From Pseudopedobacter saltans DSM 12145 (GTDB lineage: Bacteria; Bacteroidota; Bacteroidia; Sphingobacteriales; Sphingobacteriaceae): a stretch of 64,000 nucleotides of DNA. Shown here in pieces: positions 30,105 through 52,434 of the stretch (positions within the stretch are counted from its first letter, which is position 1; every line of letters starts with the position of its first letter). A program made the translations under genes and the position numbers. The stretch spans positions 558,001-622,000 of the forward strand of contig NC_015177.1 of NCBI RefSeq assembly GCF_000190735.1, in the 5' to 3' direction. Under the pieces are notes generated by a model that saw nothing but the letters and a program-made list of their open reading frames with translations, was not told the origin of the DNA and made no database searches.

Positions 30105-33100
30105 ATGAAAAAATATATATATCTAGCCGTATCCGGATTGATGGCAATCCCAACATTTAGTAAGGCGCAGACGGTTGATGGTCTACCAGCTACTATTCCG
30201 CCGGTGCCTGGAATTTATAATTTAGAACCCTGGGAAGACCCCAAGATTACTTCGATCAATCGGGAACATGCCAGGGCAACAGCTTATTCCTATTCATCTA
30301 TAGACGCTGCTCTTGAAGGCAAAAGAGAAAAGAGTGATCGTTTGATGATGCTGAATGGAGATTGGGCTTTTAAATTCGCTTTCAAGCCTGCTGATGCTCC
30401 TGTAGATTTCTATACACAAGTCCAACAGGGATGGAAAACGATTCCAGTACCTTCCAGCTGGGAGATGCAAGGCTATGATATTCCTATTTATAAATCGGCT
30501 GTATATCCGTTCAGACCGGTAGATCCGCCTCGTGTACCAAGAGATTATAATGCTGTAGGATCTTATCAAAAGACATTTGCCTTACCTGCAAACTGGAAGG
30601 ATATGAACATCACCTTACATTTTGGCGGTGTGACATCTGCTTATAAAGTTTGGCTAAATGGTAAGTTTTTAGGTTATGGCGAAGACTCTTGTTTGCCGTC
30701 GGAATTTAATATAACACCTTACCTGAAATCGGGAGAAAATGTGATTTCTGTACAGGTAATCCGTTGGAGTGATGCTTCCTATCTGGAAGATCAGGATCAA
30801 TGGAGAATGAGCGGTATTCACCGTGACGTGATGTTATTAGCAGAACCAAAAGTACGCATTGCAGATTTTCATTGGCAAGCAAAACTGGATAAAGAATATA
30901 AGGATGCTATTTTCAGTCTTCGTCCACGCATAGATAATTATTCTGGTGTAACTACAGAAGGTTATATGGTGAAGGCACAATTATATGATGCCAATAAGAA
31001 GCCAGTTTTTGCTAACGAATTGGAGAAATCCGGACATGATATTTTCAATGAAGCTTATCCGCGTTTAGATAACGTGAAATTCGGTTTGTTGGAATCTGAA
31101 GTGAAGAACCCGAAAAAATGGTCGGCAGAAGAGCCTAATCTTTATACACTGGTGATTTCGCTTTACGATAAAGAAAATAAGCTGTTGGAGGCAAAAAGCT
31201 GTAAAGTGGGATTCCGTAAAATTGAGTTCTCTAAAGAGAACGGAAAGCTATTGATCAATGGCAAGGTAACTTATCTGTATGGGGTAAATCGTCACGATCA
31301 CGATCCGGTAAAAGGTAAAGCTTTAAGCAGAGAAGATATGCGTAAAGATATTGCGCAAATTAAGAAATTCAATTTCAATGCCATTCGTACCAGCCATTAT
31401 CCAAATGATCCATATATCTATGAGCTTTGTGACGAATACGGTATCATGGTAATGGATGAAGCAAATTACGAAACGCATGGCTTAGGCGGTAAGTTAGCTA
31501 ATGATCCGGATTGGGTTGCTGCGCACATGGAGCGTATTACCAGAATGGCTTATCGTGATAAAAATCATCCAAGTATTATTATTTGGAGTTTAGGTAACGA
31601 AGCAGGACGTGGTCCAACAACAGCTTCTATGGCGGCTTGGCTGCATGATTTTGATATTACCAGACCGGTGCATTATGAGCCGGGAATGGGAAGCCATCAG
31701 TTGGAAGGGTATATAGATCCTAAAGATCCGAAATATCCAAAAACGAACGATCACTCGCACCGTTTACAAAATCCTTTGGATCAGTATTATGTGGATATGG
31801 TTTCCAGATTTTATCCGGGCGTCTATACTCCAGATTTATTACTGAATCAGAAAAATGGAGATAAAAGGCCAATCCTGTTTGTAGAATATTCGCATTCTAT
31901 GGGGAATTCTACAGGAAACATCAAGGAGTTTTGGGATATTTTCCGAAGCAGACCGAGAATGATTGGTGGTTTTATTTGGGATTATAAAGATCAGGCATTA
32001 ATTAAGAAAGATAGCACTACCGGAAATTCATTTTTGGCTTACGGTGGCGATTTTGGCGAAAAATATCATAATGGAGCGTTTAGTTTAAACGGTATTGTTG
32101 ATGCATGGGGCAGACCAAAAGCGGCAATGTTCGAGAATAAGCGTATCTATCAAGGAGCAGAAGCAACTTTAAAAGATGCCGCAAATGCAATTATCCATTT
32201 AGAAAATAGAAATGCAGTAAAGAATTTAAAAGAATTTACACCTGAAATTATTTTGTTAGAAGACGGTGTACAGGTATTGAAAAAAGAGATACCGGCTATA
32301 GATTTGAGTGCGGGAGCAAAGAAAGATATCAGCTTAAAAGCATATTTTCCAAAGCTAAAAGCGGGTAAAGAATATTTATTAAGTATCCACTTTAAGTTGT
32401 CTAAAGACGAGGTTTGGGAAAAGAAAGGTTTTGAAGTGGCATCTAATCAGTTTGCATTAACTGGTTTGTCTACTCAAAAAATCAGTAATCAAAAGTTTGC
32501 AGCAATCGCTTTAAACCAAGCAGGAGATAAAATCGATCTGAAAGGAAAGCACTTCCACATTTCTTTTGATAAGCAAAATGGAGCATTGACTTCTTATGTC
32601 CTTAATGGGAAAGAACAAATCCAGCAACCACTGTTGCCAAACTTCCTACGTCCTGAAACAGAAAATGACAGAAGAGGTTGGAAACCTAACAAAATTTTAA
32701 AAGAGTGGTACGAAAATAAGGCAACCTTAAAAACGGTAGAAGCAAAGCAGATAGCAGAAGGGTTAACTCAAATTACAGCTAATTATGATGTTGTTGCCGG
32801 AAAAGCTACGGTTCAGGTTATTTATACGGTTAATGGGAATGGAGTGGTTAAAGTTGACTATAGCTTAAAAGCGGATAATTCTCTTCCAAATATCCCAAAA
32901 GTAGGAATGCAAATGGCTATCAACCGTCCGTATGACCAAATTACTTTTTACGGAAAAGGACCAATGGAAAATTATGTAGACAGAAGATACGGTTTTGATG
33001 CAGGTATTTACAACATGTCTATCAATGATTTTATGGAACCATATATCTATCCTCAGGAAAACGGAAATCGTACCGATGTACGCTGGATGGCTTTTGGAAA

Positions 33101-33401
33101 TAAGGATAGAGAAGGTATTATGGTCGTAGCAGATAGCTTACTGAGTATGGGCGCCTGGCCTTTCACACAGGAAGAAATTTTATCAAAAAAACATTGGCAT
33201 GAATTGGTAGATGCTAATAAAATTACGGTAAATATCGATTTAATTCAGATGGGTGTAGGTGGAAATGATTCCTGGTCAGAAGTTTCACAGCCTTTGGAAC
33301 AATATCAGGTTCCGGCTAAAAACTATCAGTATACATTTTATATCAACCCGACAAAAGCAAAAACTAATTACGTACAAGAAGCAGCAAAAACGAAGTTTTA
33401 A
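30105..33401 (+). CDS. Glycoside hydrolase family 2 beta-galactosidase
   Basis: Retaining beta-galactosidase expected to trim galactan side chains. Signal peptide to about residue 21 (SKAQT), so it is periplasmic or outer-membrane-facing, unlike cytoplasmic LacZ. Domain order is that of LacZ: sugar-binding jelly-roll (about 55-245), Ig-like domain, TIM barrel (about 375-690), further Ig-like domain and the C-terminal beta-galactosidase small-chain domain (about 820-1095). The acid/base is Glu499 in IWSLGNEAG, the nucleophile Glu594 in FVEYSHSMGNS, and the galactose-contacting HDHDP and TSHYP loops are present. At 1098 residues it has the full family length. The next gene, a solute-binding-protein homologue, starts 6 bases after the stop and is therefore almost certainly in the same transcript. 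Confidence 0.95.
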   Translation: MKKYIYLAVSGLMAIPTFSKAQTVDGLPATIPPVPGIYNLEPWEDPKITSINREHARATAYSYSSIDAALEGKREKSDRLMMLNGDWAFKFAFKPADAPVDFYTQVQQGWKTIPVPSSWEMQGYDIPIYKSAVYPFRPVDPPRVPRDYNAVGSYQKTFALPANWKDMNITLHFGGVTSAYKVWLNGKFLGYGEDSCLPSEFNITPYLKSGENVISVQVIRWSDASYLEDQDQWRMSGIHRDVMLLAEPKVRIADFHWQAKLDKEYKDAIFSLRPRIDNYSGVTTEGYMVKAQLYDANKKPVFANELEKSGHDIFNEAYPRLDNVKFGLLESEVKNPKKWSAEEPNLYTLVISLYDKENKLLEAKSCKVGFRKIEFSKENGKLLINGKVTYLYGVNRHDHDPVKGKALSREDMRKDIAQIKKFNFNAIRTSHYPNDPYIYELCDEYGIMVMDEANYETHGLGGKLANDPDWVAAHMERITRMAYRDKNHPSIIIWSLGNEAGRGPTTASMAAWLHDFDITRPVHYEPGMGSHQLEGYIDPKDPKYPKTNDHSHRLQNPLDQYYVDMVSRFYPGVYTPDLLLNQKNGDKRPILFVEYSHSMGNSTGNIKEFWDIFRSRPRMIGGFIWDYKDQALIKKDSTTGNSFLAYGGDFGEKYHNGAFSLNGIVDAWGRPKAAMFENKRIYQGAEATLKDAANAIIHLENRNAVKNLKEFTPEIILLEDGVQVLKKEIPAIDLSAGAKKDISLKAYFPKLKAGKEYLLSIHFKLSKDEVWEKKGFEVASNQFALTGLSTQKISNQKFAAIALNQAGDKIDLKGKHFHISFDKQNGALTSYVLNGKEQIQQPLLPNFLRPETENDRRGWKPNKILKEWYENKATLKTVEAKQIAEGLTQITANYDVVAGKATVQVIYTVNGNGVVKVDYSLKADNSLPNIPKVGMQMAINRPYDQITFYGKGPMENYVDRRYGFDAGIYNMSINDFMEPYIYPQENGNRTDVRWMAFGNKDREGIMVVADSLLSMGAWPFTQEEILSKKHWHELVDANKITVNIDLIQMGVGGNDSWSEVSQPLEQYQVPAKNYQYTFYINPTKAKTNYVQEAAKTKF

Positions 33402-33407
33402 ATTAAA

Positions 33408-34559
33408 ATGAGCAAACCAAAAATATTAAAGGGGATAACCTGGAACCACAGCCGCGGATTTACCTCTATGGTAGCAACGGCACAAAGATTTACAGAATTA
33501 AATCCGGATGTAGAGATTGTTTGGGAGAAACGTTCATTACAACAGTTTGCCGATATGTCTATCCAGCAATTGGCAGAACGTTATGACCTGTTGGTGATAG
33601 ATCACCCTTGGGCGGGTTTTGCCGCAGGAACAAAATCTATCTTGCCATTAGATGAATATTTATCGAAAGAATATATGGCCGACCAGGCGGCGAATACCGT
33701 TGGCAGATCGCATGAAAGTTATAATTTCAATGGTAATCAATGGGCTCTGGCAATAGATGCGGCAACTCCGGTAGCTTCCAGCAGGCCAGATTTATTGGCT
33801 AAGCTTCAAGTGAATCTGCCAAAAAATTTCAAGGATGTGCTGGCTTTAGCCGATAGAGGTTTGGTAGGTGCTGCTCTGATTCCTATTGATACCATCATGA
33901 GCTATTACATGTTCTGTTGTGCCGTGGGAGAAGAACCTTTTGCTTCAGAAACAGAGGTAATCAGTAAAGAAAACGGGATTAAAGCTTTGCAATTATTCAA
34001 AACACTTGCAGACAAGATAGATCGTTCTTTCTTTGATAAAAATCCAATTCAGGTTTACGAAACCATGGTAAATACAGATACCACTGCCTACTGCCCTTTT
34101 GCTTATGGTTATTCCAATTATTCCAGAGATGGTTACGCGAAAAATCTGTTGCATTTCCATGATTTAGTAGCATTGGAAGAAGGGCAGGAAAATATGAAAA
34201 CGTCTTTGGGAGGAACAGGATTGGCAATATCATCATCATCAAAATATATTGCTGAAGCGGTTGCTTACACTGATTTTGTGGGCAACCCTCATACACAGGA
34301 ATACTTGTTTTTTGATAATGGCGGGCAACCGGGACACTTGAAAGCCTGGGAAAGCGAACATAGCAATGGTGCATCTCATAACTATTTTAAAAACACCTTG
34401 CCAGCACTGCAAAGAGCTTATTTAAGACCAAGATATCATGGACACATGCATTTTCAGGATCATGCTGGGGATGTAGTGAGAGATTACTTATTGAAAGGCG
34501 GAGATGAGCAACAGGTATTAGATAAACTGAATCAGTTGTATATAGAGTCCAGGAAGTAA
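33408..34559 (+). CDS. Solute-binding-protein-like (SBP family 1) protein without signal peptide
   Basis: Resembles family 1 ABC-type sugar-binding proteins: an N-terminal lobe with a T-W-x-H-x-R-G start, the ERYDLLVIDHPWAG segment, the SASRPD-like hinge region and a C-terminal lobe with a G-G-T-G-L-A-I motif. The N-terminus (MSKPKILKG) has no signal sequence, and the GH2 stop lies 6 bases upstream, leaving no room for one. No ABC permease or ATPase occurs in the window. It therefore looks like a cytoplasmic binding protein with a non-transport role, perhaps ligand sensing or substrate delivery to the enzymes encoded next. The family call is good; the function is unknown. Confidence 0.75.
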   Translation: MSKPKILKGITWNHSRGFTSMVATAQRFTELNPDVEIVWEKRSLQQFADMSIQQLAERYDLLVIDHPWAGFAAGTKSILPLDEYLSKEYMADQAANTVGRSHESYNFNGNQWALAIDAATPVASSRPDLLAKLQVNLPKNFKDVLALADRGLVGAALIPIDTIMSYYMFCCAVGEEPFASETEVISKENGIKALQLFKTLADKIDRSFFDKNPIQVYETMVNTDTTAYCPFAYGYSNYSRDGYAKNLLHFHDLVALEEGQENMKTSLGGTGLAISSSSKYIAEAVAYTDFVGNPHTQEYLFFDNGGQPGHLKAWESEHSNGASHNYFKNTLPALQRAYLRPRYHGHMHFQDHAGDVVRDYLLKGGDEQQVLDKLNQLYIESRK

Positions 34560-34617
34560 AAAATAGAGATCCGCTGTCATTTTACGGATGTTTTGAGGGA
34601 CAAATAAAAAGATATAG

Positions 34618-34684
34618 GTCATTTCGAATCCCATATGAAGCATATTACTTGTATGATGAGATGCTGAAACGAGTTCAGCATGAC
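34618..34684. repeat. Dispersed palindromic element with perfect 7-base stem
   Basis: The element begins GTCATTTCGA and ends TTCAGCATGAC, so the outer GTCAT/ATGAC bases pair. Inside, TGCTGAA (34662-34668) and TTCAGCA (34674-34680) form a perfect stem with a 5-base loop. It resembles GTCATTTCGA...ATGAC elements that I recall as common between genes in Pedobacter-like genomes; only this copy is visible here. It lies in the 238-base gap between the first solute-binding-like gene and the CoA-transferases. Confidence 0.5.
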
Positions 34685-34753
34685 TTTGCTAATTATTGTG
34701 CATACGCGAAGACACTAAAGTCAACATAATATATTCAAGCGGGGCATCTAGTG

Positions 34754-34785
34754 ACTTGATACTAGGTACTTGATACTTTAAAAAA
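34754..34785 (+). repeat. Leader repeat copy 2 with tandem ACTTGATAC
   Basis: Two ACTTGATAC units (34754-34762, 34768-34776) are followed by TTTAAAAAA and then an AACAAAAGA-type stretch up to the CoA-transferase ATG at 34798. The leader of the SDR gene (minus strand, 50693-50735) has nearly the same sequence and the same distance to the ATG. Confidence 0.6.
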
Positions 34786-34797
34786 CTAACAAAAGAA

Positions 34798-35943
34798 ATG
34801 AAACCATTAGAAGGTTTACTGGTTTTAGAATTTGCCCAATTTATGGCAGCCCCAACAGCTGGTTTGAAATTGGCGGATTTGGGAGCCAGAGTAATTAAAA
34901 TAGAAAGGCCGGTAAAAGGTGAAGGGGGCAGACAAATAGCTATTAAAAATCTATTTGTTGATGGAGATAGTTTGGTTTTCCATACCATCAATAGAAATAA
35001 GGAATCCTACGCGGCAGACTTGAAGAATCCTGAGGATTTGGAGAGAGTGAAGAAGCTAATCGCTCAGGCAGATGTGATGACGCATAATTTCCGTCCGGGT
35101 GTGATGGAAAAGATAGGTTTGGATTACGAACAAGCCATCAAAATCAATCCTAAGTTGGTTTATGGCATTGTAACCGGATATGGTAATAAAGGGCCTTGGG
35201 CAAATAAACCTGGGCAAGATTTATTGATCCAGTCTTTATCAGGCTTGACGTGGTTATCAGGAACTAGCAATCATGGACCAACACCTTTTGGTCTGGCTAC
35301 AGCCGATATGATTTGCGGCCATCACTTAACACAAGGTATTTTGGCGGCATTAATCAAGCGAGCGAAGACGCAGAAAAGTGTTTTAGTAGAAGTCAGCTTG
35401 TTAGAATCTATTTTGGATCTACAATTTGAAGTAATCACCAGTTTCTTAAATGACGGGAATAAGCTGCCTCAACGAGGAAGTGAAAACGGAACGGCACATG
35501 CTTATCTAAGTGCTCCCTATGGAATTTATCAAACGAAAGATGCCTATTTAGCTCTGGCAATGGGTAATTTGCTGTTTATTGGCGAGACTTTAGGAATTGA
35601 TTTATCTGCATACAAGCATAAAGAATCCTGGTTCACAGAGAAAGATCAAATCACGCAATTGTTAGCAAATCGTATTCAAGAAGAAAGCACAAGCTATTGG
35701 ACTGATTTACTAAATAGTAAAGGAATTTGGTGTTCGCCGATATTCAATTATCAAGAGCTTTTAAGTCACGAAGCTTATCAGGTTTTAGGATTTGATCAGG
35801 AATTGGATTTACCTAACGGAGAAATTCTGAAAGGAACCAGAAGTCCAATCCAAATCAATGGAGAGAAGCTTTATTCCAGAAAAGCGGCTCCGAAAGCGGG
35901 AGCAGAAACCGAATTAATCAATCAACAATTTAATCTGATATAA
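34798..35943 (+). CDS. CaiB/BaiF (class III) CoA-transferase, first of a tandem pair
   Basis: Transfers CoA between carboxylic acids through enzyme-bound anhydride intermediates, in the cytoplasm. The family opening [29 protein letters not shown] is present in modified form, together with [15 protein letters not shown], the [10 protein letters not shown] loop and the [11 protein letters not shown] segment. Its Asp170 corresponds to the catalytic Asp169 of formyl-CoA transferase. At 381 residues it has standard length. The next gene is a clear paralogue starting 1 base after its stop, so the two probably act together, as a heteromer or on successive acids. Neighbours (MaoC hydratase, Gfo/Idh/MocA oxidoreductase, two solute-binding-like proteins) suggest a CoA-ester pathway for an organic or sugar acid; the substrate is unknown. 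Confidence 0.92.
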
Positions 35944-35944
35944 A

Positions 35945-37093
35945 ATGAAACCATTAGAAGATTATTTAGTTGTCGACTTTAGTCAATTCCTTTCGGCACC
36001 TTCGGCAAGCTTGAAATTGGCCGATTTAGGGGCGAGAGTAATCAAAATAGAACGTCCCGAAACTGGTGATATTTGTCGTCATTTATATACCTCAAATGTA
36101 GTTCTTAACGGAGAATCCACGGTTTTTCATGCTATCAATAGAAATAAAGAAAGCTTGGCTTTGGATATTAAGAGCGAAGAAGACCGGGAGAAAATCTGGA
36201 AATTAATAGAAGAAGCCGATGTGGTGATGCATAATTTCCGTCCGGGAGTAATGGAACGCTTGGGTTTCGATTACGAATCTGTAAAAGCAAAAAATCCATC
36301 AGTTGTTTACGGAGAAATTTCTGGTTATGGTACAGAGGGGCCATGGAAAGATTTGCCCGGTCAGGATCTCTTATTACAATCTTTAACTGGGATTACCTGG
36401 TTAAATGGCAATAAAAACGATGGTCCTGTACCCATGGGTTTATCTATTGTAGATATGTTGGCGGGAGCCAATTTAGCCAATGGTATTTTAGCTTGTCTGT
36501 TACGTAAAGCCTTAAAAAATGAAGGTGCTTTGGTGCAGGTCAGTATGATCGAGTCTGCCTTGGACTTCCAATTTGAAGCCATTACCACTTTTTACAGAGA
36601 TGGTTGTCAGTTGCAGGAACGTACAGCAAGCAACAGCGCTCATGCTTATTTAGGTGCTCCTTATGGAATTTATCAGACTCAAAATGGCTATTTGGCCTTG
36701 GCAATGGGATCTATTCCTGTTCTAGGTAAATTGCTTTCTTGCGATGCTTTATTGGCCTATGAGCAAGTGGCAGAAGCTTATGATAAGCGAGATGAGATTA
36801 AAAATATTTTAGCCAATCATTTAAGAACTCAAGAAACTTCTTACTGGTTGAATATTTTAGAACCAGCAGATATCTGGTGTGCAGATGTGATGGATTGGGA
36901 GCGTTTATTCCAACACGAAGCTTTTAAAGTTCTGGATATGGTACAAACGGTAAAAATGTCTGATGGTTTTGAATATGAAACAACCAGAAGTCCAATCCGA
37001 CTGGACGGAGAGGTCATTAAATCAGCGAAAGGATCGCCTATTTTAGGGGAAGACAATGCCAAAATCATAAAGGAGCTGTATGGAAAAATCTAA
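35945..37093 (+). CDS. CaiB/BaiF (class III) CoA-transferase, second of a tandem pair
   Basis: Paralogue of the preceding gene: both begin MKPLE and share [24 protein letters not shown] and the GPW loop at matching positions. The catalytic Asp170 sits in PMGLSIVDM. Length 382 residues. The two copies differ enough in the substrate-facing loops (for example VKGEGGRQ versus ETGDICRH after IERP) to suggest different roles rather than a recent duplication. The last 14 bases overlap the start of the following gene, so translation is coupled. Cytoplasmic; substrate unknown. Confidence 0.92.
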
Positions 37094-38306
37094 ATTCAGA
37101 TTTGCAGTACGCAAATTTCAACCTTTCGAGAATGCTATGCAGAAGATATGGGAGTCTTTCTGTAAAGAACGTGGTTTAGATATAGAAGCTGAGTTTGTAG
37201 CCATGGATTTACCGGAACTTCATGATGCCATTATCGGTCGTGGAGGTTTGAAAAATGGCGACTGGGATGCAGCACATATCGTAACGGATTGGTTAGACGA
37301 AGCCTATTCTTCCGAAAGTTTGGAAGCACTGAATCCTTATCTGGAAGCGCAAAATCTGAATTTAGAAGTCTGGAGTAATTCTTTGCTGGAAGCACAAGTT
37401 TTTGAACAAAAAGAGATTGTAGGACTGCCTTTTCATGATGGACCGGAATGTTTAATTATTCGTAAAGATTTATTTGAATCAGAAAAGGAGCAGCTTGATT
37501 TTCATAAACAATACGGAAGAACTTTAGAAGTTCCTAAAACCTGGAATGAGTTTATAGAAGTTGCTCAGTTTTTCCAAAGGCCAGCACAAAATTTATACGG
37601 AACGGTGTTAGCCGGTTTCCCGGATGGACACAATACCGTTTATGATTTCTGTTTGCAGTTATGGACTCGTGGTGGAAATTTAACCAACGAAAAAGGCGAG
37701 ATCAATATCAATCAATCTGAAGCTCAAGCAGCCTTGGATTTTTATAAATCATGGGTGAATAATCAGAATATTGTACATCCTCAATCTAAAGAATACGAAT
37801 CTGTTCAATGCGGATTGGCCTTTGCAAGAGGGGAAGCGGCTATGATGATTAATTGGTTTGGCTTTGCAGCCATGTGCGAAGTTATTGATGAATCGAAAGT
37901 GAAAGGGAAGGTAGATGTTGCACAGATTCCGTCTTTGAAGAATACCAAACCGGCTTCATTAAATATCTATTGGCTTTATGCTATAGGAAAAGGAAGCGAT
38001 AATAAGCAAATGGCTTTTGATTTTATTCAGTACGCTACTTCTGCCCAGAACGATAAGCTGTTGACTTTAGAAGGCGGAATTGGTTGTAGAAAATCTACCT
38101 GGCATGACCCAGAAATCAACAAGACCATTCCGTATTATCATAAACTGGAACAACTTCACGATTATGCCAGAACTTTACCACGTACAGCTACATGGGCGAA
38201 AATAGCTGAACATATAGATGAAATGATGGTAAGGGCAATTCATACAAATGAAGTTTTAGAAAATATTTTAGTCGAAACTCAACAGAAAATAGATCAATGC
38301 AAATAA
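37080..38306 (+). CDS. Second solute-binding-protein-like (SBP family 1) protein without signal peptide
   Basis: 408 residues with the two-lobe family 1 binding-protein pattern: [16 protein letters not shown] in the first lobe, [14 protein letters not shown], the [13 protein letters not shown] hinge region and the [14 protein letters not shown] motif typical of sugar-binding members. The protein starts [13 protein letters not shown] directly at the domain, with no signal peptide or lipobox, and its start codon lies inside the preceding CoA-transferase gene. It is distinct from the 33408 protein, so the cluster carries two different cytoplasmic binding proteins. No transporter partners are nearby. 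A role in holding or presenting a CoA-ester precursor, or in sensing it, is speculation. Confidence 0.78.
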
Positions 38307-39352
38307 ACTATAAACCCATATTACCAGAGCAAAAGCTTCCAATAGTAATTATTGGAGCAGGTGGAATAGTGAAAGATGCTCATCTTCCTGCCTATAAAAA
38401 AGCAGGTTTTGAAGTTTGGGGAATAACCAATAGAACAAGAGAGCGAGCAGAGAAATTAGCTATAGCGTTTAATATTCCGCATGTTTTTGACAACGTAGCA
38501 GATGCTGTTGCTGCTGCTCCCAAAAATGCAGTTTACGATATTACCATTATGCCCGAAAAGTTTGTCGAAACTTTAGAGCAGTTGCCGGACGGGGCAGGGG
38601 TATTGATTCAGAAGCCAATGGGCGATTTTATCGCACAAAGCTATGAGATTTTAGAGGTTTGCAGAAGAAAGAATTTGGTAGCTGCTATCAATTGTCAATT
38701 ACGCTTTGCACCTTATACCATGGCGGCTAAAGCGATGATTGAGCAAGGTTTAATTGGAGAGGTTTACGATATGGACGTACGTGTAACCGTACAAACACCG
38801 TGGGAACTATTTCCTCATGTAATGGTTCATCCTCGTCTCGAGTTCCAATATCATAGTATCCATTATTTCGATTTGATTCGTTCTTTCTTAGGAAATCCAC
38901 AATCTATTTTAGCAAAAACATTAAAGCATCCTGCCAAAGCTTTATCTTCTTCCAGATCTACAGTGATTTTTGATTATGGCGATACTTTACACGCAGTGAT
39001 CAATACGAATCATGATCACGATTTTGGTGCGCAACATCAGGAAAGTTTTATAAAGTGGGAAGGGACAAAAGGTGCCATTAAAGCAAAAATGGGCTTGTTG
39101 ATGAATTATCCGGACGGTGTGCCAGATGCTTTTGAATATTGTATCTTGGAAGAAGGACAAGCGCCAGAGTGGAACTCTATAGCATTAGAAGGATCCTGGT
39201 TTCCTGATGCATTTGTTGGTACAATGGCCAGCGTAATGCGCTACAAAAATGGAGAAACAGACGTTTTACCCACTTCGGTAGAAGATGTGATCCATACCAT
39301 GGAATGGGTAGAGAAGGCTTATGAATCCAGTGCGAATGGAGGAGTTTATTAA
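38297..39352 (+). CDS. Gfo/Idh/MocA-family NAD(P)-dependent oxidoreductase
   Basis: Cytoplasmic dehydrogenase of sugar or cyclitol substrates. The N-terminal Rossmann fold shows IVIIGAGGIVKDAHLPAY. The strand leading to the active-site Lys reads IQKPMGD, where the family usually has E-K-P. The C-terminal alpha/beta domain carries the active-site-like HSIHYFDLIRSFLG. Length 351 residues is typical. It overlaps the upstream gene by 10 bases. In this cluster it probably oxidises or reduces the sugar-derived substrate before or after CoA activation; substrate and cofactor cannot be read from sequence. Confidence 0.9.
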   Translation: MQINYKPILPEQKLPIVIIGAGGIVKDAHLPAYKKAGFEVWGITNRTRERAEKLAIAFNIPHVFDNVADAVAAAPKNAVYDITIMPEKFVETLEQLPDGAGVLIQKPMGDFIAQSYEILEVCRRKNLVAAINCQLRFAPYTMAAKAMIEQGLIGEVYDMDVRVTVQTPWELFPHVMVHPRLEFQYHSIHYFDLIRSFLGNPQSILAKTLKHPAKALSSSRSTVIFDYGDTLHAVINTNHDHDFGAQHQESFIKWEGTKGAIKAKMGLLMNYPDGVPDAFEYCILEEGQAPEWNSIALEGSWFPDAFVGTMASVMRYKNGETDVLPTSVEDVIHTMEWVEKAYESSANGGVY

Positions 39353-39386
39353 ACATTAAAAATCAAACATTAACAATTGAAAGATT

Positions 39387-39833
39387 ATGTATTTCAAATC
39401 CACATTTTTTGAAGACTATCAATTAAACGATAAAAGGACAACATTGGGAAGAACCATTACCGAAACGGATTTTGTAGTTCATGCCGGTCATACGGGAGAT
39501 TTTTTTCCGCACCACATGGACGCAGAATGGTGCAAAACTCAACCCTTCGGCGGACGTATAGCTCATGGAACCATGATATTTGCCATTGGGATTGGTTTAA
39601 CCGCTTCTGAGATTAATCCAGAAGCATTTTCTAAGGGGTATGATCGTCTGCGTTTTGTGAAGCCGGTTTTTATTGGTGATACCATTCATTCAGAAGTAAC
39701 TATTTCGGAAAAGTCAGATGCCAAAAAGCCAGAATATGGAACGGTAACAGAACATGTAGAAATTATCAACCAAAAAGGGGAGGTAGTTTTGGTTGCAGAT
39801 CATATTTTATTGGTAAAGCGTAAAGACGTTTAA
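39387..39833 (+). CDS. MaoC-like (hot-dog fold) dehydratase/hydratase
   Basis: Single hot-dog domain, 148 residues, expected to add or remove water from a CoA thioester. The hydratase 2-type motif appears as [12 protein letters not shown], keeping the Asp and the His five positions later, but with Phe where many members have Asn. It is followed by [15 protein letters not shown], the family's second signature. It is the last gene of the CoA-transferase cluster and is followed by a strong terminator. Relatives include mesaconyl-CoA and beta-methylmalyl-CoA dehydratases, which also work with CaiB-type transferases; that link is suggestive only. Confidence 0.9.
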
Positions 39834-41008: not shown

Positions 41009-41013
41009 ATCTT

Positions 41014-45981: not shown

Positions 45982-46995
45982 TTAGTCGAAATCAATCATT
46001 GCCTTGATTACTCCATTTTTTGGATCTAACCATTTTTCGAATTCATTTTTAACTTCATCGAAATCGACAGTGTGTGTAATATAGGTCGTTGGTTTTACAA
46101 GGCCTTTTTTCATGGAATCAATCACATGTTCGAAATCCACGCGATTTGCATTTCTACTACTCATTAATGTCGCTTCTCTTTTATGAAACTCCGGATGAAG
46201 GAAAGATATTTCGCCCTTTTGTAACCCAACTAATACGTAGCGTCCACCATGGGCCAGATATTGGAAAGCCCCGTTTATAGCTTTTTGGTTTCCGGTAGCA
46301 TCGATAATAACGGTTGGCATATCGCTATTAGTGATTTTTTGTAAGGCTTCCGTAACGTCTTCTTGAGTTGGATTAATCGTATAATCGATACCTAATTTCT
46401 CTTTGCAGAAGTTCAGCCTGTCATCATTAATATCCAATGCAATAACTTTTCCTCCCGCTATTCTGGCGAACTCCATAATACCTAAACCAATAGGACCGGC
46501 ACCCAGAACAAGAACAAATTCGTCTTTACTCACTCCAGCTCTTCTTACGCCATGTGCACCAATTGCTAAGGGTTCTACCAATGCAAGTTCGTCAAAGCTA
46601 AGGCCTTCTCCGTGTACCAAAGAGTATGTAGGTACAGAAATATATTCGGCCATAGCGCCATCTATATGAACGCCGCAAACATTTATAGAAGTACAGCAAT
46701 TTTCTTTTCCACTTCTGCAGGCAATGCATTTGCCACAGTAGAAATAGGGGATGATGGTTATCGCTTCGCCTTGTTTAAAGTTGGTATCATCAGTTTCAAC
46801 TATTTCAGCAGCCAGTTCGTGCCCTAGTCTTCTTGGGTAACTGAAAAAAGGTTGTGTGCCTGTAAATGCATGTAAATCTGTACCACAGATACCCACTCTC
46901 CTTATCTTCAAAATGCTCTGTCCGGGGGTAGCCGCCGGCTTTTCTATATCTATATACTCAAAATTTCCAGGTGTTGTGCACACAAGTGTTTTCAT
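45982..46995 (-). CDS. Zinc-dependent medium-chain alcohol dehydrogenase
   Basis: 337-residue MDR-family dehydrogenase related to sorbitol, galactitol and L-threonine dehydrogenases. Catalytic zinc ligands are Cys37 (GICGTD) and His59-Glu60 (LGHELA). The structural zinc loop CGKCIACRSGKENCC is intact, and a Rossmann GAGPIGLGIMEFA motif binds NAD(P). It is the last gene of the fucose-type operon and starts 10 bases after the aldo/keto reductase. Possible jobs are oxidation of L-fucose or a related sugar, or handling a C3 product. The substrate cannot be decided here. Confidence 0.9.
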   Translation of the reverse strand: MKTLVCTTPGNFEYIDIEKPAATPGQSILKIRRVGICGTDLHAFTGTQPFFSYPRRLGHELAAEIVETDDTNFKQGEAITIIPYFYCGKCIACRSGKENCCTSINVCGVHIDGAMAEYISVPTYSLVHGEGLSFDELALVEPLAIGAHGVRRAGVSKDEFVLVLGAGPIGLGIMEFARIAGGKVIALDINDDRLNFCKEKLGIDYTINPTQEDVTEALQKITNSDMPTVIIDATGNQKAINGAFQYLAHGGRYVLVGLQKGEISFLHPEFHKREATLMSSRNANRVDFEHVIDSMKKGLVKPTTYITHTVDFDEVKNEFEKWLDPKNGVIKAMIDFD

Positions 46996-47005
46996 GTAAA
47001 TCTTT

Positions 47006-48016
47006 TTAAATTTGAATGAGACCTTTTTCCCTCATAGCATCCCAAAAAGTTTGCGGAATTTGTTTAGTAGCCATTTCAATATTACCTTTTACCTTCTCCG
47101 GTTTGGTAGTGCTTAAAGCTACGGAAGAAACTCCTTTGATATTAAATCCAAAATTGAAGCAGGCTTCGGCAGGAGTAATCGCAAATTCTTCGCACAATGC
47201 GTAAAATTGTTCTCTCCAGGCCAATAATTCTCTTCCTCTTTCCGTTTCAGCGTTAACCTCTACATAATTATAGAAATTACTGCCTATAAGAAATCCTCCA
47301 TTGAAAACCGCGGAATTGATTACTGTAACGCCTTTATCTTTTAATTTTCCAATAAAATCAATCAAATCTTTAGGATGGGAGTGTGCAGTCAAGCTATTAG
47401 CAATCATTACCCAGTCGAGTTGGATATCCTGAGCAATACGCTTAATAACAGTCCAGTCTTTCGAGCCAATTCCGATAGATTTTGCTCTTCCCTGACGTTT
47501 AAGATCTCCTAAAGCTCTATATGCATCCATAATATCCTGGTAACGTTTCTTGGCGTCCATTTCGTCTTTGGCAGCAGCAAGATATTCATCAGGATCGTGA
47601 ACAGACACCATATCAGAATTGTATTTTCCTAACAATTCATTACCCTGTTCGAAACAATCGATGATGCCCTGATAGCTAATTTTTTGTACCGCATCATTTT
47701 TCATGTCAATCCAGATACCTTTTTCAAAAGTAGGTTCTGGTGTTGTTAGTTCCGTTTGGTACCAACCCAGTTTATTATTAATAATTACTTGGCATGGATC
47801 AACATTTAGTTCTTCTAAACATTGTCCCAGTACTTCCAGAGATAAACCTGCGCCATATTTTCCGGCACTGTCAAATACAGGAATTCCAGGGCTATGCTTA
47901 ATACATTGTTCTACTATAGCGAGCTTTCTTTCAAAAGGAAGCGCCTCATATATATTCCCCAGCCCGCTTGTTCCAAATATTACCGGAGGAATTGTTTCTA
48001 TATCTTGAGATAACAT
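47006..48016 (-). CDS. Aldo/keto reductase, probable L-fucose (aldose) 1-dehydrogenase
   Basis: 336-residue AKR with the tetrad Asp49, Tyr54, Lys82 and His140 (FDSAGKYG, NNKLGWY, SVHDPD). Its closest known theme is D-threo-aldose/L-fucose 1-dehydrogenases, which oxidise L-fucose to L-fucono-lactone. The neighbouring lactonase, dehydratase, SDR and FAH-family hydrolase complete that pathway. It lies 11 bases after the lactonase gene on the same strand. Cytoplasmic. Confidence 0.85.
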   Translation of the reverse strand: MLSQDIETIPPVIFGTSGLGNIYEALPFERKLAIVEQCIKHSPGIPVFDSAGKYGAGLSLEVLGQCLEELNVDPCQVIINNKLGWYQTELTTPEPTFEKGIWIDMKNDAVQKISYQGIIDCFEQGNELLGKYNSDMVSVHDPDEYLAAAKDEMDAKKRYQDIMDAYRALGDLKRQGRAKSIGIGSKDWTVIKRIAQDIQLDWVMIANSLTAHSHPKDLIDFIGKLKDKGVTVINSAVFNGGFLIGSNFYNYVEVNAETERGRELLAWREQFYALCEEFAITPAEACFNFGFNIKGVSSVALSTTKPEKVKGNIEMATKQIPQTFWDAMREKGLIQI

Positions 48017-48027
48017 AAGTCTATGGT

Positions 48028-48852
48028 TTATAAGTTATAAAATCGTTCCGCATTTAAACCAAGTATTTTCTCTTGCTCTAAATTACTAAACGTAGCATAA
48101 TATTCTTTTGGTATCGATTGCATTTCAGTATATGAAGCAGCGACAAGGCAAACAGGCCAATCACTACCGAACATAATTCTGTCTGTGCCAAACGCTTCGG
48201 TAACGATATCTAAGTAAGGAGTGAAGTCTTCCTTCTTCCAGTTCTTATAATCAGCTTCTGTCACCATTCCGCTCACTTTTATCATCACATTTGGAAACTC
48301 TGAAATAGCTTTAATATCTTCAGACCACCCGGCTACGATACCTTTTTTTATATACGGTTTTGAGATATGGTCGATAACAAAAGGTTGATTAGGATTTTCT
48401 TTTACCAATTCTATTGCAGCTTTTATATGCTGAGGAAAAAGCAATAAATCATAGGTGAAACCAAAATCTTTAAGTTTTGAAATGCCATTTTTAAAGTCAG
48501 CTTGTAACATAAAAGAAGGTTCTTCGCCCTGCAAAACATGTCTGAAACCTTTTATCAGAGGTTCTTGCTTGAAATGAGCTAGGCGATCTTCTATATTTTC
48601 CGCTTTTAAATCTACCCAGCCAACAATTCCTTTAATGAAGCTATTTTCTTTAGCTAAGGAAACGAGGAAATTTGTCTCTTCTTCGGTTTGATCGGCCTGT
48701 ACTGCTACACAGCCATCAATTTCGTTTACTTTAAGAATAGGAGCAAGGTCTTCAGGGAGGAAATCTTTGCGGATATTGGACATTTCATCGTCTATCCATT
48801 CGTGTTTAATGGGGTCGTAATGCCAAAAGTGTTGATGCGAATCTATTCTCAT
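48028..48852 (-). CDS. Amidohydrolase-family lactonase, probable L-fucono-1,5-lactonase
   Basis: 274-residue metal-dependent hydrolase with the N-terminal HxH (RIDSHQHFWHYD), a later VIDHISKP His and the FGSDWPVC Asp. This is the pattern of the L-rhamnono/L-fucono-lactonase branch of cog3618 amidohydrolases. In the pathway it opens the lactone made by the aldo/keto reductase. Operon position supports this; sequence alone does not separate fuconolactone from rhamnonolactone. Confidence 0.85.
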   Translation of the reverse strand: MRIDSHQHFWHYDPIKHEWIDDEMSNIRKDFLPEDLAPILKVNEIDGCVAVQADQTEEETNFLVSLAKENSFIKGIVGWVDLKAENIEDRLAHFKQEPLIKGFRHVLQGEEPSFMLQADFKNGISKLKDFGFTYDLLLFPQHIKAAIELVKENPNQPFVIDHISKPYIKKGIVAGWSEDIKAISEFPNVMIKVSGMVTEADYKNWKKEDFTPYLDIVTEAFGTDRIMFGSDWPVCLVAASYTEMQSIPKEYYATFSNLEQEKILGLNAERFYNL

Positions 48853-48941
48853 AATCTGTTTTTTCGCAAGAAAAAGTATAAGTCTTTGTGTTAAATTTCC
48901 AGAGACATTTATGTCTTATTTTGATGATTGTATCAGATATG

Positions 48942-48998
48942 CAACCACAAAGTAATTTTAACTAAAATAGAAATTTAATGTCAGCCCCTTTGTGGTTG
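48942..48998 (-). promoter_or_regulatory. Large stem-loop between FAH-family and lactonase genes
   Basis: CAACCACAAAG (48942-48952) and CTTTGTGGTTG (48988-48998) are exact complements around a 35-base loop. No T-run follows on the minus strand, so it may slow or process the mRNA within the operon, or mark a partial operon break, rather than fully terminate. Confidence 0.5.
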
Positions 48999-49010
48999 AA
49001 TATATTTGTT

Positions 49011-49868
49011 TTATTTTCCTGAATATGCTTTTACTTCCTGTCTTGAGGTCCCCAGTCCATCGATACCTAATTCCATTATGTCACCAGGTTTTAAATATAC
49101 TGGCGGAATAAAGCCTAAACCTACTCCATGAGGTGTACCTGTAGAAATAACATCACCAGGTAAAAGAGTCATAAACTGGCTTACATAAGACACTACTGTT
49201 GGGATATCAAAAATAAAGTCGTCAGTATTTCCGTCTTGTAAAGTTTTTCCGTTTAATTTTAACCAAAGGCGTAGGTTGTGCGGGTTTTCAATCTCATCAG
49301 CAGTTGCCAACCATGGGCCAATAGGAGCGAAGGTATCACAACCTTTACCTTTATCCCATGTGCCACCACGTTCTAACTGGAATTCTCTTTCGCTAATGTC
49401 ATTATGTAAACAATAACCCGCAACATAATCCATAGCCTCTTCTTTGCTTACATAGCTTGCTTTTTTACCAATAACAAATGCCAACTCAACTTCCCAGTCC
49501 GTTTTTACCGAATTTTTTGGAATAACAACGTCATCGTTAGGCCCTATTAACGCGGTTGTAGATTTAAAGAAAATAATAGGTTCTGCCGGAATTGGAGCAT
49601 TAGTTTCTTTCGCATGCTTTGCATAGTTTAAACCAATACAAACAATTTTAGATGGTCTGGCAAAAGGAGCACCTAGTCTTACGTCGTCTGCAACAATTGG
49701 TAATTTACCTGTATTTTCTTCAACAAATTTTGCCAGTCTGTTCAACCCATCATTTTCGAAGAAAGATTCGTTATAATCTTCGCCAAAAGCAGATGTATTG
49801 TATTTAATGTCGTTAATGATTACTCCTGTTTGCTCTTTGCCTGGTTCCCCGAATCTAATTAATTTCAT
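49011..49868 (-). CDS. Fumarylacetoacetate hydrolase-family protein, probable 2,4-diketo-3-deoxy-L-fuconate hydrolase
   Basis: 285 residues with the FAH core: VCIGLNYAKHAKET, EPIIFFKSTTALIGP, the metal-binding E-x-E near DWEVELAFVIGK, and DISEREFQLERGGTWDKGKGCDTF. This length and motif set match the sugar-acid branch that cleaves 2,4-diketo-3-deoxy-L-fuconate to pyruvate and L-lactate, the final step of the non-phosphorylating fucose route. Context supports the assignment. Confidence 0.87.
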   Translation of the reverse strand: MKLIRFGEPGKEQTGVIINDIKYNTSAFGEDYNESFFENDGLNRLAKFVEENTGKLPIVADDVRLGAPFARPSKIVCIGLNYAKHAKETNAPIPAEPIIFFKSTTALIGPNDDVVIPKNSVKTDWEVELAFVIGKKASYVSKEEAMDYVAGYCLHNDISEREFQLERGGTWDKGKGCDTFAPIGPWLATADEIENPHNLRLWLKLNGKTLQDGNTDDFIFDIPTVVSYVSQFMTLLPGDVISTGTPHGVGLGFIPPVYLKPGDIMELGIDGLGTSRQEVKAYSGK

Positions 49869-49928
49869 TTCTATCCTTTATTAAAGTTTTAAAATATATT
49901 ATTGTCTTCTTTGTTTTCTCTTTGAAAA

Positions 49929-50693
49929 TTAGCTGTTTAATTTGATAAATCCACCATCAATAGGATAATCATTGCCAGTAATAAAACTTGCTTCGTCAGA
50001 ACATAGGTATAAAGCCAGATTTGCAATTTCTTCGGTGGTCCCCATTCTGCCAATAGGTTGTGTTTTAGAAAGTTTATCAAACATTTCCTTCTCCTGTCCG
50101 GGATAATTTTTTGCAATAAATCCATCAACGAAAGGTGTATGTACCCTCGCCGGAGAAATAGAGTTGCATCTGATATTGTTTTGTAAATAATCTTTTGCAA
50201 CACTTAAAGTCATTGCGAATACAGCACCTTTACTCATAGAATATGCAAACCTGTCGCTTAAGCCAACCCAGGCGGCTATAGAAGCGATATTCAAAATTAC
50301 TCCAGAATTTTGTTTAACAAATTTAGGTAGTACCTCATGTAAGCAATTGTATGTACCCTTCACATTAACGCGGTATACACGGTCGAAATCTTCTTCAGAT
50401 GTACTGGTTGCGCTGCCTACATGAGCGATACCAGCACAGTTAACTAAAATGTCTACTTTTTCGATTTTGTTGATGATCTCGCTTACTTCTTGCTGATTGC
50501 TGACGTCTGCAGCATATATTAAAGAAGAACCTCCCAGGCTATCAATTACATTTTTGGTGCTTTGAGCCTGTTCAAGATTTAAATCGATAATATGTACAGT
50601 AGCCCCGTTTTTGGCAAAATTCTCGGCAATAGCTTTTCCGATACCACTACCGCCTCCGGTTACAACCGCTGATTTATTTTTTAATGAAAACAT
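49929..50693 (-). CDS. SDR oxidoreductase, probable 2-keto-3-deoxy-L-fuconate 4-dehydrogenase
   Basis: 254-residue short-chain dehydrogenase: TGGGSGIG cofactor loop, NCAGIAHVG and the catalytic YSMSK (Tyr-x3-Lys). The Met at 50693 starts exactly at the Rossmann domain (MFSLKNKSAVVTGGG); an in-frame Met at 50729 lies inside the repeated leader and is unlikely. In the pathway it oxidises the C4 hydroxyl of 2-keto-3-deoxy-L-fuconate, between the dehydratase and the FAH-family hydrolase. Confidence 0.87.
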   Translation of the reverse strand: MFSLKNKSAVVTGGGSGIGKAIAENFAKNGATVHIIDLNLEQAQSTKNVIDSLGGSSLIYAADVSNQQEVSEIINKIEKVDILVNCAGIAHVGSATSTSEEDFDRVYRVNVKGTYNCLHEVLPKFVKQNSGVILNIASIAAWVGLSDRFAYSMSKGAVFAMTLSVAKDYLQNNIRCNSISPARVHTPFVDGFIAKNYPGQEKEMFDKLSKTQPIGRMGTTEEIANLALYLCSDEASFITGNDYPIDGGFIKLNS

Positions 50694-50700
50694 ATCTTTT

Positions 50701-50730
50701 GTTTTTAAAGTATCACGTATTAGTATCAAG
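50701..50730 (-). repeat. Leader repeat copy 3 (inverted copy of the CoA-transferase leader)
   Basis: On the minus strand CTTGATAC, a short spacer, then GATACTTTAAAAAC and ACAAAAGA lead to the SDR ATG at 50693. The CoA-transferase leader (34754-34800) has the same order and nearly the same spacing. The two genes are in unrelated operons. Confidence 0.6.
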
Positions 50731-50784
50731 AACTCTTCTTTCGATTCTGTTCCTGATACTTATATCTTGTGTCTCGCTCCTTAA

Positions 50785-52434
50785 TTAAAGGCTTACACCT
50801 CTTTTCCATGGAATAAAGTCGTCCTGATTTAATTGAACAGCTTTAGGAACAATTTCTCCACTAGCTACCTTGATACAAAATTCAAGAATTTCGGCGCCAA
50901 CTTCCTGTATCGTTTTTTCTCCTCTGATGATAGATCCGGTGTCAATATCTATAATATCGCCCATTCTGGTTGCCAGTTCGGTATTGGTTGATACTTTAAT
51001 AACCGGACAAATCGGATTTCCGGTAGGAGTACCTAAGCCCGTGGTAAATAAAATCAAAGTCGCACCACTAGCGGCTTTTCCTGTTGTCGCTTCAACATCA
51101 TTTCCCGGAGTACAAACCAAATTTAAACCAGGTTTTGTTGCGGGTTCTGTGTAATCCAGTACATCTACAACCGGAGAAGTTCCTCCTTTTTTTGCAGCAC
51201 CAGTACTTTTAATAGCATCGGTGATTAAACCATCTTTGATATTGCCCGGCGAAGGGTTCATGAAGAACCCTGATCCGACAGCATGAGCCTGTGCGTCGTA
51301 TGATTGCATTAAATGCATGAACTTTTTTGCAATTGTTTCGTTTTCACAACGATCAATCATATTTTGTTCAGCTCCGCAAAGTTCAGGGAATTCGGCTAAA
51401 AGGACTTTAGCTCCCAGGCCAACTAATAAATCTGCAGTTACACCTACAGCAGGATTTGCAGAAATACCACTGAAACCATCACTTCCTCCACATTTTACAC
51501 CTACAGCCAATTTAGATAACGGAGCAGGTTTCCGCTCGATTTTATTAAGTTCTATTAAATGCTGGAAGGTCTGTTTAATTGCTTCTGCAATAAGGTATTC
51601 TTCACTTTGTGCCTTTTGTTGTTCGAAAACTAAAATAGGTTTATCGAAGTTGGCTGACTTGCTTTTTATAGTTTCTACCAAATCATTAGCCTGAAGATGC
51701 TGACATCCTAAACTTAGGATAGTAATACCACCAACATTTGGATGATTGGCATAAGCGGCCAGCAGATTTGCTAAAACTTCTGAATCTTGTCTGGTTCCAC
51801 CACAACCGCCCTGATGGTTTAAGAATTTAATACCATCAATGTTTTTGAATACTCTTTTGCTTCTGTGATATTCTGGCGTAGCTAAAGAAAAATCCAGATT
51901 CGAGATATCTTCACCTTTCTGATAAGCCTCTAAAATTTCTGCAGTATAGTCTTTGTATTTATCTGTAACGGAATATCCTAGATTATTATAAAGTGCTTCT
52001 TTAATAATGTCCATATTTCTATTTTCGCAGAAAACAGTAGGGATAAATAACCAATAGTTTGCAGTGCCAACGTCTCCGTTATTTCTATGATATCCGTTGA
52101 ATGTCCTTCCTGTGAATTGGGATACATCTGGAGCAGTCCATTTATAATTCACATCTCTATAATAATAAGGTTCCGCTGCATGATGCAGATTTTCGGTAGT
52201 CATTCTATTTCCGATTGAAACAGGGTGAAGTGTTTTTCCAACAAGTACACCATACATGGTGACTTCATTTTCCGTACCCAAGTTTTCGATATAAAATTTA
52301 TGTTTAGCAGGTACATCGTCAAGAAGTTCAAAAGATAAGTCTTTCCACTGAATTTGAGTTCCCTTAGCTAAATCTTGTAGGGCGACTAAAACATTATCGC
52401 GTTCGTCAATCTGTATATATTGTTTTTGAGCCAT
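50785..52434 (-). CDS. UxaA-family (altronate-type) dehydratase, probable L-fuconate dehydratase
   Basis: 549 residues: an N-terminal SAF-like domain (about 1-90, DERDNVLVALQDLAKG) and the D-galactarate/altronate dehydratase C-terminal domain with HQGGCGGTRQD, LGCQHLQ and GVKCGGSDGFSGISANPAVG motifs, whose cysteines fit the family's metal site. Length is that of full UxaA-type enzymes. Usually these dehydrate altronate or galactarate. Here the flanking genes make L-fuconate dehydration to 2-keto-3-deoxy-L-fuconate the best fit, replacing the enolase-superfamily FucD of Xanthomonas. Altronate remains possible, since galacturonate from pectin could also feed it. First gene of the operon, under the promoter at 52505-52535. 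Confidence 0.82.
   Translation of the reverse strand: MAQKQYIQIDERDNVLVALQDLAKGTQIQWKDLSFELLDDVPAKHKFYIENLGTENEVTMYGVLVGKTLHPVSIGNRMTTENLHHAAEPYYYRDVNYKWTAPDVSQFTGRTFNGYHRNNGDVGTANYWLFIPTVFCENRNMDIIKEALYNNLGYSVTDKYKDYTAEILEAYQKGEDISNLDFSLATPEYHRSKRVFKNIDGIKFLNHQGGCGGTRQDSEVLANLLAAYANHPNVGGITILSLGCQHLQANDLVETIKSKSANFDKPILVFEQQKAQSEEYLIAEAIKQTFQHLIELNKIERKPAPLSKLAVGVKCGGSDGFSGISANPAVGVTADLLVGLGAKVLLAEFPELCGAEQNMIDRCENETIAKKFMHLMQSYDAQAHAVGSGFFMNPSPGNIKDGLITDAIKSTGAAKKGGTSPVVDVLDYTEPATKPGLNLVCTPGNDVEATTGKAASGATLILFTTGLGTPTGNPICPVIKVSTNTELATRMGDIIDIDTGSIIRGEKTIQEVGAEILEFCIKVASGEIVPKAVQLNQDDFIPWKRGVSL

Follow-up and report, generated by a model that had tools for sequence, protein, structure and literature searches.

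A cluster of six genes from Pseudopedobacter saltans DSM 12145, a member of the Bacteroidota, encodes two solute-binding proteins (SBPs), two class III coenzyme A (CoA)-transferases of the CaiB type, a Gfo/Idh/MocA-type dehydrogenase, and a MaoC-type hydratase. The cluster lies in a stretch of 64,000 nt that was analyzed as a whole (hereafter the window; contig NC_015177.1, positions 558,001 to 622,000). The reading we favor, with a probability of roughly two in five, is that these genes encode a dehydratase that recycles CoA and acts on a hydroxy acid derived from a sugar, in which SBPs that lack a leader serve as cytosolic, substrate-presenting partners. The most likely substrate would be a 6-deoxy-aldonate, for instance L-fuconate or one closely related to it. 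All parts of the gene set are known families, and no description of SBP, CaiB, and hydratase in combination was found in the portions of the literature that were searched.

The genes all reside on the forward strand. The first, SBP1 (33408..34559), encodes a leaderless, carbohydrate-type binding protein of 383 amino acids (Pfam SBP_bac_1, 40.8 bits). It is followed by CaiB1 (34798..35943; 381 amino acids; CoA_transf_3, 298 bits), its paralog CaiB2 (35945..37093; 382 amino acids; CoA_transf_3, 314 bits), and SBP2 (37080..38306; 408 amino acids), which encodes a leaderless binding protein of the MalE type (SBP_bac_1, 100.4 bits). The remaining two genes are for the Gfo/Idh/MocA-type protein (38297..39352), possibly a sugar 1-dehydrogenase judging from Pfam and from its own recurrence as a neighbor in relatives, and the MaoC-type acyl-CoA hydratase/dehydratase (39387..39833; MaoC_dehydratas, 78 bits; PDB 4ffu, E value 3.6e-63). 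An earlier, sequence-only reading of the window had placed the six open reading frames (ORFs) at the same coordinates and on the same strand, and its family assignments agree with Pfam. The spacing it described was also found: 6 bases separate the stop of the preceding gene (33401) from the start of SBP1 (33408), and SBP2 starts at 37080, inside CaiB2 (end 37093), with an overlap of 14 bases. Between SBP1 and CaiB1 there is a gap of 238 bases, making the sequence compatible with either one or two transcripts.

A gene set conserved across phyla

Strong matches to SBP1 were present in 19 of 395 Bacteroidota genomes, that of P. saltans included, and two further matches were weak (E values of 3.6e-5 and 6.4e-4) and were set aside. 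Every one of the 19 genomes has the tandem CaiB1-CaiB2 pair. This pair is located beside SBP1 in the window and at 17 of 18 fetched loci, and in genome G286 60 kb of a single contig separate it from SBP1. The complete order SBP1-CaiB1-CaiB2-SBP2-Gfo-MaoC is retained at 11 of the 18 loci. At four loci (L037-L040), SBP2 is the one gene missing beside SBP1-CaiB1-CaiB2, Gfo, and MaoC, and two (L034, L035) carry only SBP1-CaiB1-CaiB2 of the six genes. In G286, SBP1 is solitary and the CaiB1-CaiB2-SBP2-Gfo-MaoC run is the part that lies 60 kb off. SBP2 itself occurs in 13 of the 395 genomes, all of them SBP1-positive.

Relatives of SBP1 are not confined to this phylum. Alphaproteobacteria, Betaproteobacteria, and Streptomyces have homologs of 30-39% identity next to a CaiB gene. 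Among 145 named plasmid records that match SBP1, 17 stretches were opened (Rufibacter, Persicobacter, three from Sinorhizobium, Roseibium, Thalassospira, Croceibacterium, Nitratireductor, Variovorax, Methylobacterium, Pseudosulfitobacter, Streptomyces, Azospirillum, Shinella, Qingshengfaniella, and Martelella), and CaiB adjoins SBP1 in all 17. A scan of a genome collection confirmed at least 584 SBP1 relatives. In the best 80, which appear from their titles to be alphaproteobacterial, CaiB is directly upstream of SBP1 at 78 loci. On pSymB of Sinorhizobium meliloti, SBP1 and CaiB form an overlapping pair about 21 kb from a MaoC/Gfo run, with insertion-sequence genes in between. That run also carries L-fuconate dehydratase, FAA hydrolase, SDR, and rhamnose-type mutarotase genes, as well as a sugar ATP-binding cassette (ABC) transporter whose own SBP does carry a leader. 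The haloarchaeon Halostagnicola has a relative of SBP2 (37% identity) together with CaiB, MaoC, Gfo, a mutarotase, an amidohydrolase, an alpha-L-fucosidase, and an AMP-binding protein (Pfam), the last of which is also annotated beside the SBP in Methylobacterium. The conserved neighborhood that the sequence-only reading had proposed to look for is therefore strongly kept well beyond this strain, and a chance assembly was rejected because the gene set recurs across genomes and phyla.

The CoA_transf_3 profile is covered from position 1 to 366 of 366 in both CaiB proteins. Asp170, which we take to be the catalytic residue and which agrees with the aligned Asp of a solved relative, is kept in both, as had been claimed, and does not vary among nine aligned sequences, the two from the window included. 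By domain and aspartate the two proteins are assigned to the class III (CaiB/BaiF) CoA-transferases, with predicted transfer activity. Both score below the equivalog cut-off in all seven NCBIfam families listed, which include the carnitine, oxalate/formyl, glutarate, and mesaconate specificities. The best score was 200 bits against a cut-off of 750 (glutarate), and for the L-carnitine CoA-transferase family the scores were 72 and 82 bits against 413. In the CaiB tree, from which G286 was left out, the CaiB1 and CaiB2 sequences separate into sister groups, each with 20 rows and both drawn from one set of 20 loci (the CaiB1 group is starred and the CaiB2 group has support of 87/74), which indicates an old duplication retained in tandem. 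The heteromeric class III enzyme benzylsuccinate CoA-transferase (PDB 9fn0) likewise combines two different subunits of one family. Both paralogs here keep the catalytic Asp. To our knowledge, no heteromeric class III CoA-transferase has an SBP partner.

Leaderless binding proteins and the search for a permease

The sequence-only reading had stated that the two SBPs lack signal peptides, and indeed neither has a hydrophobic N terminus. The check relied on hydropathy and a test of start positions rather than on a trained signal-peptide predictor. Across the first 35 residues, peak hydropathy over 11 residues ranges from -0.07 to 1.44 in 18 leaderless SBPs (SBP1 and SBP2 of the window and 16 from named relatives), compared to 1.59 to 3.22 in 11 of 12 ABC binding proteins from the same set of named loci. 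The twelfth, from Nitratireductor, reaches 0.87, and its annotated start seemingly falls within the mature part of the protein. For 29 SBP1 and SBP2 ORFs from 18 Bacteroidota loci the peak is at most 1.21, except at L038 (1.68), where the ORF is extended upstream. A 51-residue upstream extension also precedes, in the SBP1 ORF of L023, the Met that is common to the relatives. In Alphaproteobacteria, a TW-x-HPRG motif begins 17-35 nt past the CaiB stop at 77 of 79 measured loci, which leaves no space for a leader in those 77. The motif is at 199 nt in one of the other loci, one has no CaiB match, and the eightieth locus is without the motif. Among the homologs examined, none has a plausible signal peptide at the conserved start, so that the refuting find named by the sequence-only reading, homologs with signal peptides, did not turn up among them.

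An AlphaFold model of SBP1 built from a 45-row alignment (pLDDT 94.5, pTM 0.91) has the two-lobe SBP fold of the carbohydrate-binding type. Foldseek matched this model to the carbohydrate-binding proteins 5ysd, 6dtq, 1eu8, and 7ofy, with TM values of 0.78-0.84 and 13-18% identity. SBP2 is predicted to have the same two-lobe fold on the basis of Pfam and its PDB kin 1eu8 and 6dtq; its single-sequence model was poor (pLDDT 41.5) and was not used. An alignment of 18 SBP1 sequences from three phyla contains 45 invariant columns, including Trp, His, Arg, and Asp, as would suit a single type of ligand or an unchanging partner. SBP1 in its predicted fold and SBP2 in its sequence kinship thus resemble carbohydrate ABC binding proteins of the MalE type. 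Unlike those proteins, however, they are leaderless, have no sugar permease in their own genome, and are linked to CoA-transferases.

The heading of the sequence-only reading, that no transporter is present, agrees with the window as far as permeases were scanned. No ABC permease was detected by Pfam in 32 of its 33 ORFs of at least 200 amino acids (39908-41008 was left out), a negative that covers permeases only, as no family-wide search was made for ABC ATPases. It needs amending for the relatives, which carry a transporter of the FucP-type MFS or RhaT kind near the cluster; the P. saltans genome encodes a 68% identical MFS protein about 234 kb from it. The only PF00528 permease of this complete genome is encoded about 4.6 kb upstream of the window and by eye reads as MetI of a MetNIQ methionine importer set, and there are zero PF02653 matches genome-wide. 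Both families are missing from genomes G107 and G150. In all three genomes, the SBPs are consequently left with no sugar ABC permease from either family. Annotation pipelines do name such SBPs extracellular solute-binding or ABC transporter substrate-binding proteins, and 17 of the 19 SBP1 genomes have one to seven PF00528 matches (only the MetI context was examined) and six have PF02653 matches. Nonetheless, given the missing signal peptides and the lack of a cognate PF00528 or PF02653 permease in the P. saltans genome and in G107 and G150, an ABC-importer role was rejected as far as sequence allows, and we regard it, like a chance assembly of a set that is conserved across phyla, as scarcely credible.

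Exchangeable hydratases and the proposed dehydration route

The window protein contains the sequence GDFFPHH, read directly and presumably the Asp-His motif of MaoC enzymes, and is predicted by domain and motif to belong to the MaoC/(R)-hydratase family. An ortholog is present in 17 of the 19 SBP1 genomes, and both genomes without one encode a crotonase-family enoyl-CoA hydratase within the cluster. Crotonase thus accompanies two of two clusters without MaoC and one of 17 with it (G154 has both), for an exact probability of 0.018, uncorrected for kinship. Triplets of CaiB, SBP, and crotonase occupy all five loci inspected in a separate Proteobacteria/Streptomyces branch (S. medicae, Variovorax, Pseudosulfitobacter, Streptomyces, and Azospirillum), and the type of hydratase switches at least three times on the SBP tree. 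At the alphaproteobacterial loci, MaoC is directly before CaiB in 52 of 80, directly after SBP1 in two, and anywhere in the stretch in 62. MaoC and crotonase have unrelated folds and share only the hydration or dehydration of acyl-CoA. The alternation of two such folds in one gene set argues for (de)hydration of a CoA thioester and is the best evidence here, independent of the co-occurrence, for such chemistry. At L033, L034, and L035 an aldehyde dehydrogenase gene adjoins that of the crotonase, which suggests that the pathway ends differently in these genomes.

In the proposed route, the Gfo or a zinc-type alcohol dehydrogenase (Zn-ADH), together with a lactonase of the amidohydrolase family, would yield an aldonate, onto which CaiB1/CaiB2 would load CoA. 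MaoC, or crotonase in relatives, would then remove water from the thioester or add it, and the CaiB pair would take CoA back from the product for use on a further substrate molecule. The role of SBP1 and SBP2 would be to capture the polyhydroxy acid in the cytosol and offer it to the CoA-transferase. CoA-transferases do not usually act on acids with many hydroxyl groups, and the use of a sugar-binding protein as its presenter would explain why the SBPs have been retained. The CoA transfer, the direction of the hydratase step, and physical contact between SBP and CaiB are parts of the route that we infer.

There are precedents for portions of this arrangement. In CaiB/CaiD and FldA-type systems, a hydroxy acid is dehydrated while a class III CoA-transferase recycles CoA from product to substrate, and the occurrence of such enzymes in a deoxyhexose setting suggests a similar dehydration of a sugar acid. 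Presence of a CoA-transferase and an acyl-CoA hydratase in one genetic unit, as expected of a CoA-recycling dehydratase, is shared with the Escherichia coli carnitine dehydratase pair CaiB/CaiD, which, unlike the window set, acts on carnitine and has no binding-protein partner. FldA/FldBC and HadA/HadBC also recycle CoA through a class III CoA-transferase to dehydrate hydroxy acids, but their dehydratase is a radical iron-sulfur enzyme and not a MaoC or crotonase protein, and they have no SBP.

A broader formulation is that a former transport protein has become an obligate, substrate-selecting subunit of a CoA-transferase, and that interchangeable MaoC or crotonase enzymes dehydrate sugar acids in the form of their CoA thioesters. 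Such a three-part machine would extend through Bacteroidota, Proteobacteria, Actinomycetota, and, with SBP2, haloarchaea. Taken as a whole, this formulation is possible but rather doubtful. The at least 584 SBP1-type proteins, of which the annotated ones seen are named ABC or extracellular binding proteins, may actually be metabolic partners in the cytosol. If a sugar-acyl-CoA is made, deoxysugar breakdown would proceed in a manner unlike that of the known metal-dependent aldonate dehydratases, with relevance to plant symbionts, pectin degraders, and algal-glycan degraders.

Several observations weigh against a CoA-recycling dehydratase with SBP partners. SBP2 is absent from six of the 19 genomes that retain both CaiB genes, so CaiB2 can do without SBP2. 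No fused SBP-CaiB ORF occurs at the 80 alphaproteobacterial loci (nor one fused to MaoC), and 18 of these 80 stretches, some ended by contig ends, have neither MaoC nor crotonase. Genome G206 carries the MFS and Gfo genes beside an FAA operon (L227 14786-18446) with no CaiB, SBP, or MaoC between them, no CaiB anywhere in the stretch, and no SBP1 match genome-wide, which is possibly a loss of the CaiB-SBP-MaoC genes. Classical enolase-type dehydratases are often present too at the alphaproteobacterial loci, and a UxaA-like dehydratase is located 11 kb from the window cluster, so that a CoA-dependent enzyme is not obviously needed. Finally, the SBP1 of G286 (L036 9384-10544) heads an operon that resembles, by eye, one for rhamnose isomerase, kinase, and aldolase, with no CaiB nearby.

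This last arrangement speaks for a reading in which the SBPs are cytosolic sensors, buffers, or chaperones for a sugar or sugar acid and stand outside the CoA step, with CaiB and MaoC acting on a later acid such as a C3/C4 product. IclR regulators are also frequent neighbors. Yet SBP1 is tied more closely to CaiB than to the regulator, as the position of its TW motif just past the CaiB stop reveals, and we judge this explanation unlikely. Another proposal is that the SBPs have turned into enzymes of the pathway and act before or after the CoA step. MqnA and THI5 are precedents for SBP folds as enzymes, the conserved polar Trp, His, Arg, and Asp span three phyla, and all examined SBPs are leaderless. 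However, these residues could equally serve to bind one ligand, no known catalytic motif was recognized, and the 50 best fold neighbors of SBP1 listed are transport-type binding proteins, which makes an enzymatic role quite improbable.

Sugar context of the cluster

The sequence-only reading had attached the cluster to a pectin locus and inferred a CoA-ester route for a sugar- or plant-derived acid. Cross-phylum co-occurrence and the hydratase exchange speak for a route of this kind, whereas the neighbors point to deoxyhexoses rather than to pectin as such. Genes for pectinesterase-domain proteins do precede the cluster. The locus comprises a hybrid two-component regulator, SusC/SusD, two pectinesterase-domain proteins, GH3, GH95, a rhamnosidase-like protein, and, directly upstream of SBP1, a GH2 beta-galactosidase (30105..33401, forward strand, Pfam). 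A Sir2-family gene (26845-27534, opposite strand) is inserted between the GH95 and rhamnosidase-like genes. Across the relatives, however, the neighbors suggest oxidation of a 6-deoxyhexose of the L-fucose type. Mutarotase, lactonase-family amidohydrolase, deoxysugar dehydrogenases, and sugar transporters recur across phyla, and the named stretches include fuconate dehydratase and alpha-L-fucosidase among such neighbors. No pectin genes are listed in the S. meliloti, Roseibium, and Thalassospira stretches; kduI and uxaC are listed in that of Nitratireductor.

These neighbors also bear on the proposal that the CoA enzymes handle an acyl, methyl, or aromatic acid freed from decorated pectin or glycosides and not the sugar skeleton. 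The pectinesterase-domain and other glycan genes of the window, the esterases at some other loci, and the best-scoring solved relative of CaiB1, a succinate-hydroxymethylglutarate CoA-transferase, are in its favor. Set against them are the deoxysugar-related neighbors and a partner that is a sugar-type SBP, and we consider it improbable that the acid is of this origin. The gene set, conserved in bacteria that feed on plant and algal sugars, points instead to a breakdown of fucose-like sugars that appears to be undescribed.

The window also contains an operon-like fuconate-type oxidative set on the reverse strand (45982..52434; Pfam) with genes for Zn-ADH, aldo/keto reductase (AKR), amidohydrolase, FAA hydrolase, SDR, and the UxaA-like dehydratase. 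An IclR-type regulator gene (52550..53287, forward strand, Pfam) is divergent from it, and IclR genes recur near the CaiB-SBP module in relatives. The same kinds of genes, minus AKR and UxaA, are divergent beside SBP1 in seven relatives. At L023 and L025-L030, FAA, SDR, Zn-ADH, and amidohydrolase are present and there is no UxaA or enolase-type gene. Several relatives (L187, L190-L192, L197) carry UxaA-SDR-FAA sets with 64-70% identity away from the SBP1 cluster. The oxidative L-fucose/L-rhamnose pathway runs through an aldonate and a 2-keto-3-deoxy acid to FAA hydrolase. Its mutarotase, amidohydrolase, SDR, FAA hydrolase, and fuconate dehydratase are the neighbors seen here, but the known pathway, unlike the proposed route, uses neither CoA thioesters nor a cytosolic SBP.

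A survey of FAA hydrolases covered 67 of 75 matches, several of the stretches being ended by contig ends (the P. saltans locus was left out, as were G359:C9, G313, G352, G007, G376, G301, and G103, seven from the group of the eight most divergent matches). Among 59 loci without CaiB-SBP, 22 have UxaA, eight an enolase-type gene, four an IlvD-like gene (by eye), and 25 none of these; among eight loci with CaiB-SBP, none has UxaA and one has a weak enolase-type match (24% identity). The survey lends weak support to replacement of the aldonate dehydratase by CaiB-SBP. As a further point against the dehydratase reading, 25 of the 67 loci are without both a recognized dehydratase and CaiB-SBP, so the missing dehydratase at SBP1 loci proves little. 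The window itself has both UxaA and CaiB-SBP. A simple replacement, an idea prompted by L023 and L025-L030, was set aside. Absence of fucose isomerase was uninformative as a marker (PF02952 is found in six of the 19 genomes, and the P. saltans match of 31 bits is just above the cut-off). L-rhamnose is an unlikely substrate in P. saltans, as RhaT and a rhamnose isomerase/kinase/aldolase-like operon (enzymes by eye) are encoded elsewhere in its genome.

Downstream of the cluster, a sigma-factor-like gene and then one for a trypsin-like protein with a transmembrane segment were read by eye at 39908-41583. A DUF5703 protein is encoded at 42300-44606, and in Rufibacter (L043) one is likewise annotated close to the SBP1 cluster. 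Two large ORFs of the window, 11860-13395 and 58572-60602, have no Pfam match at the thresholds used.

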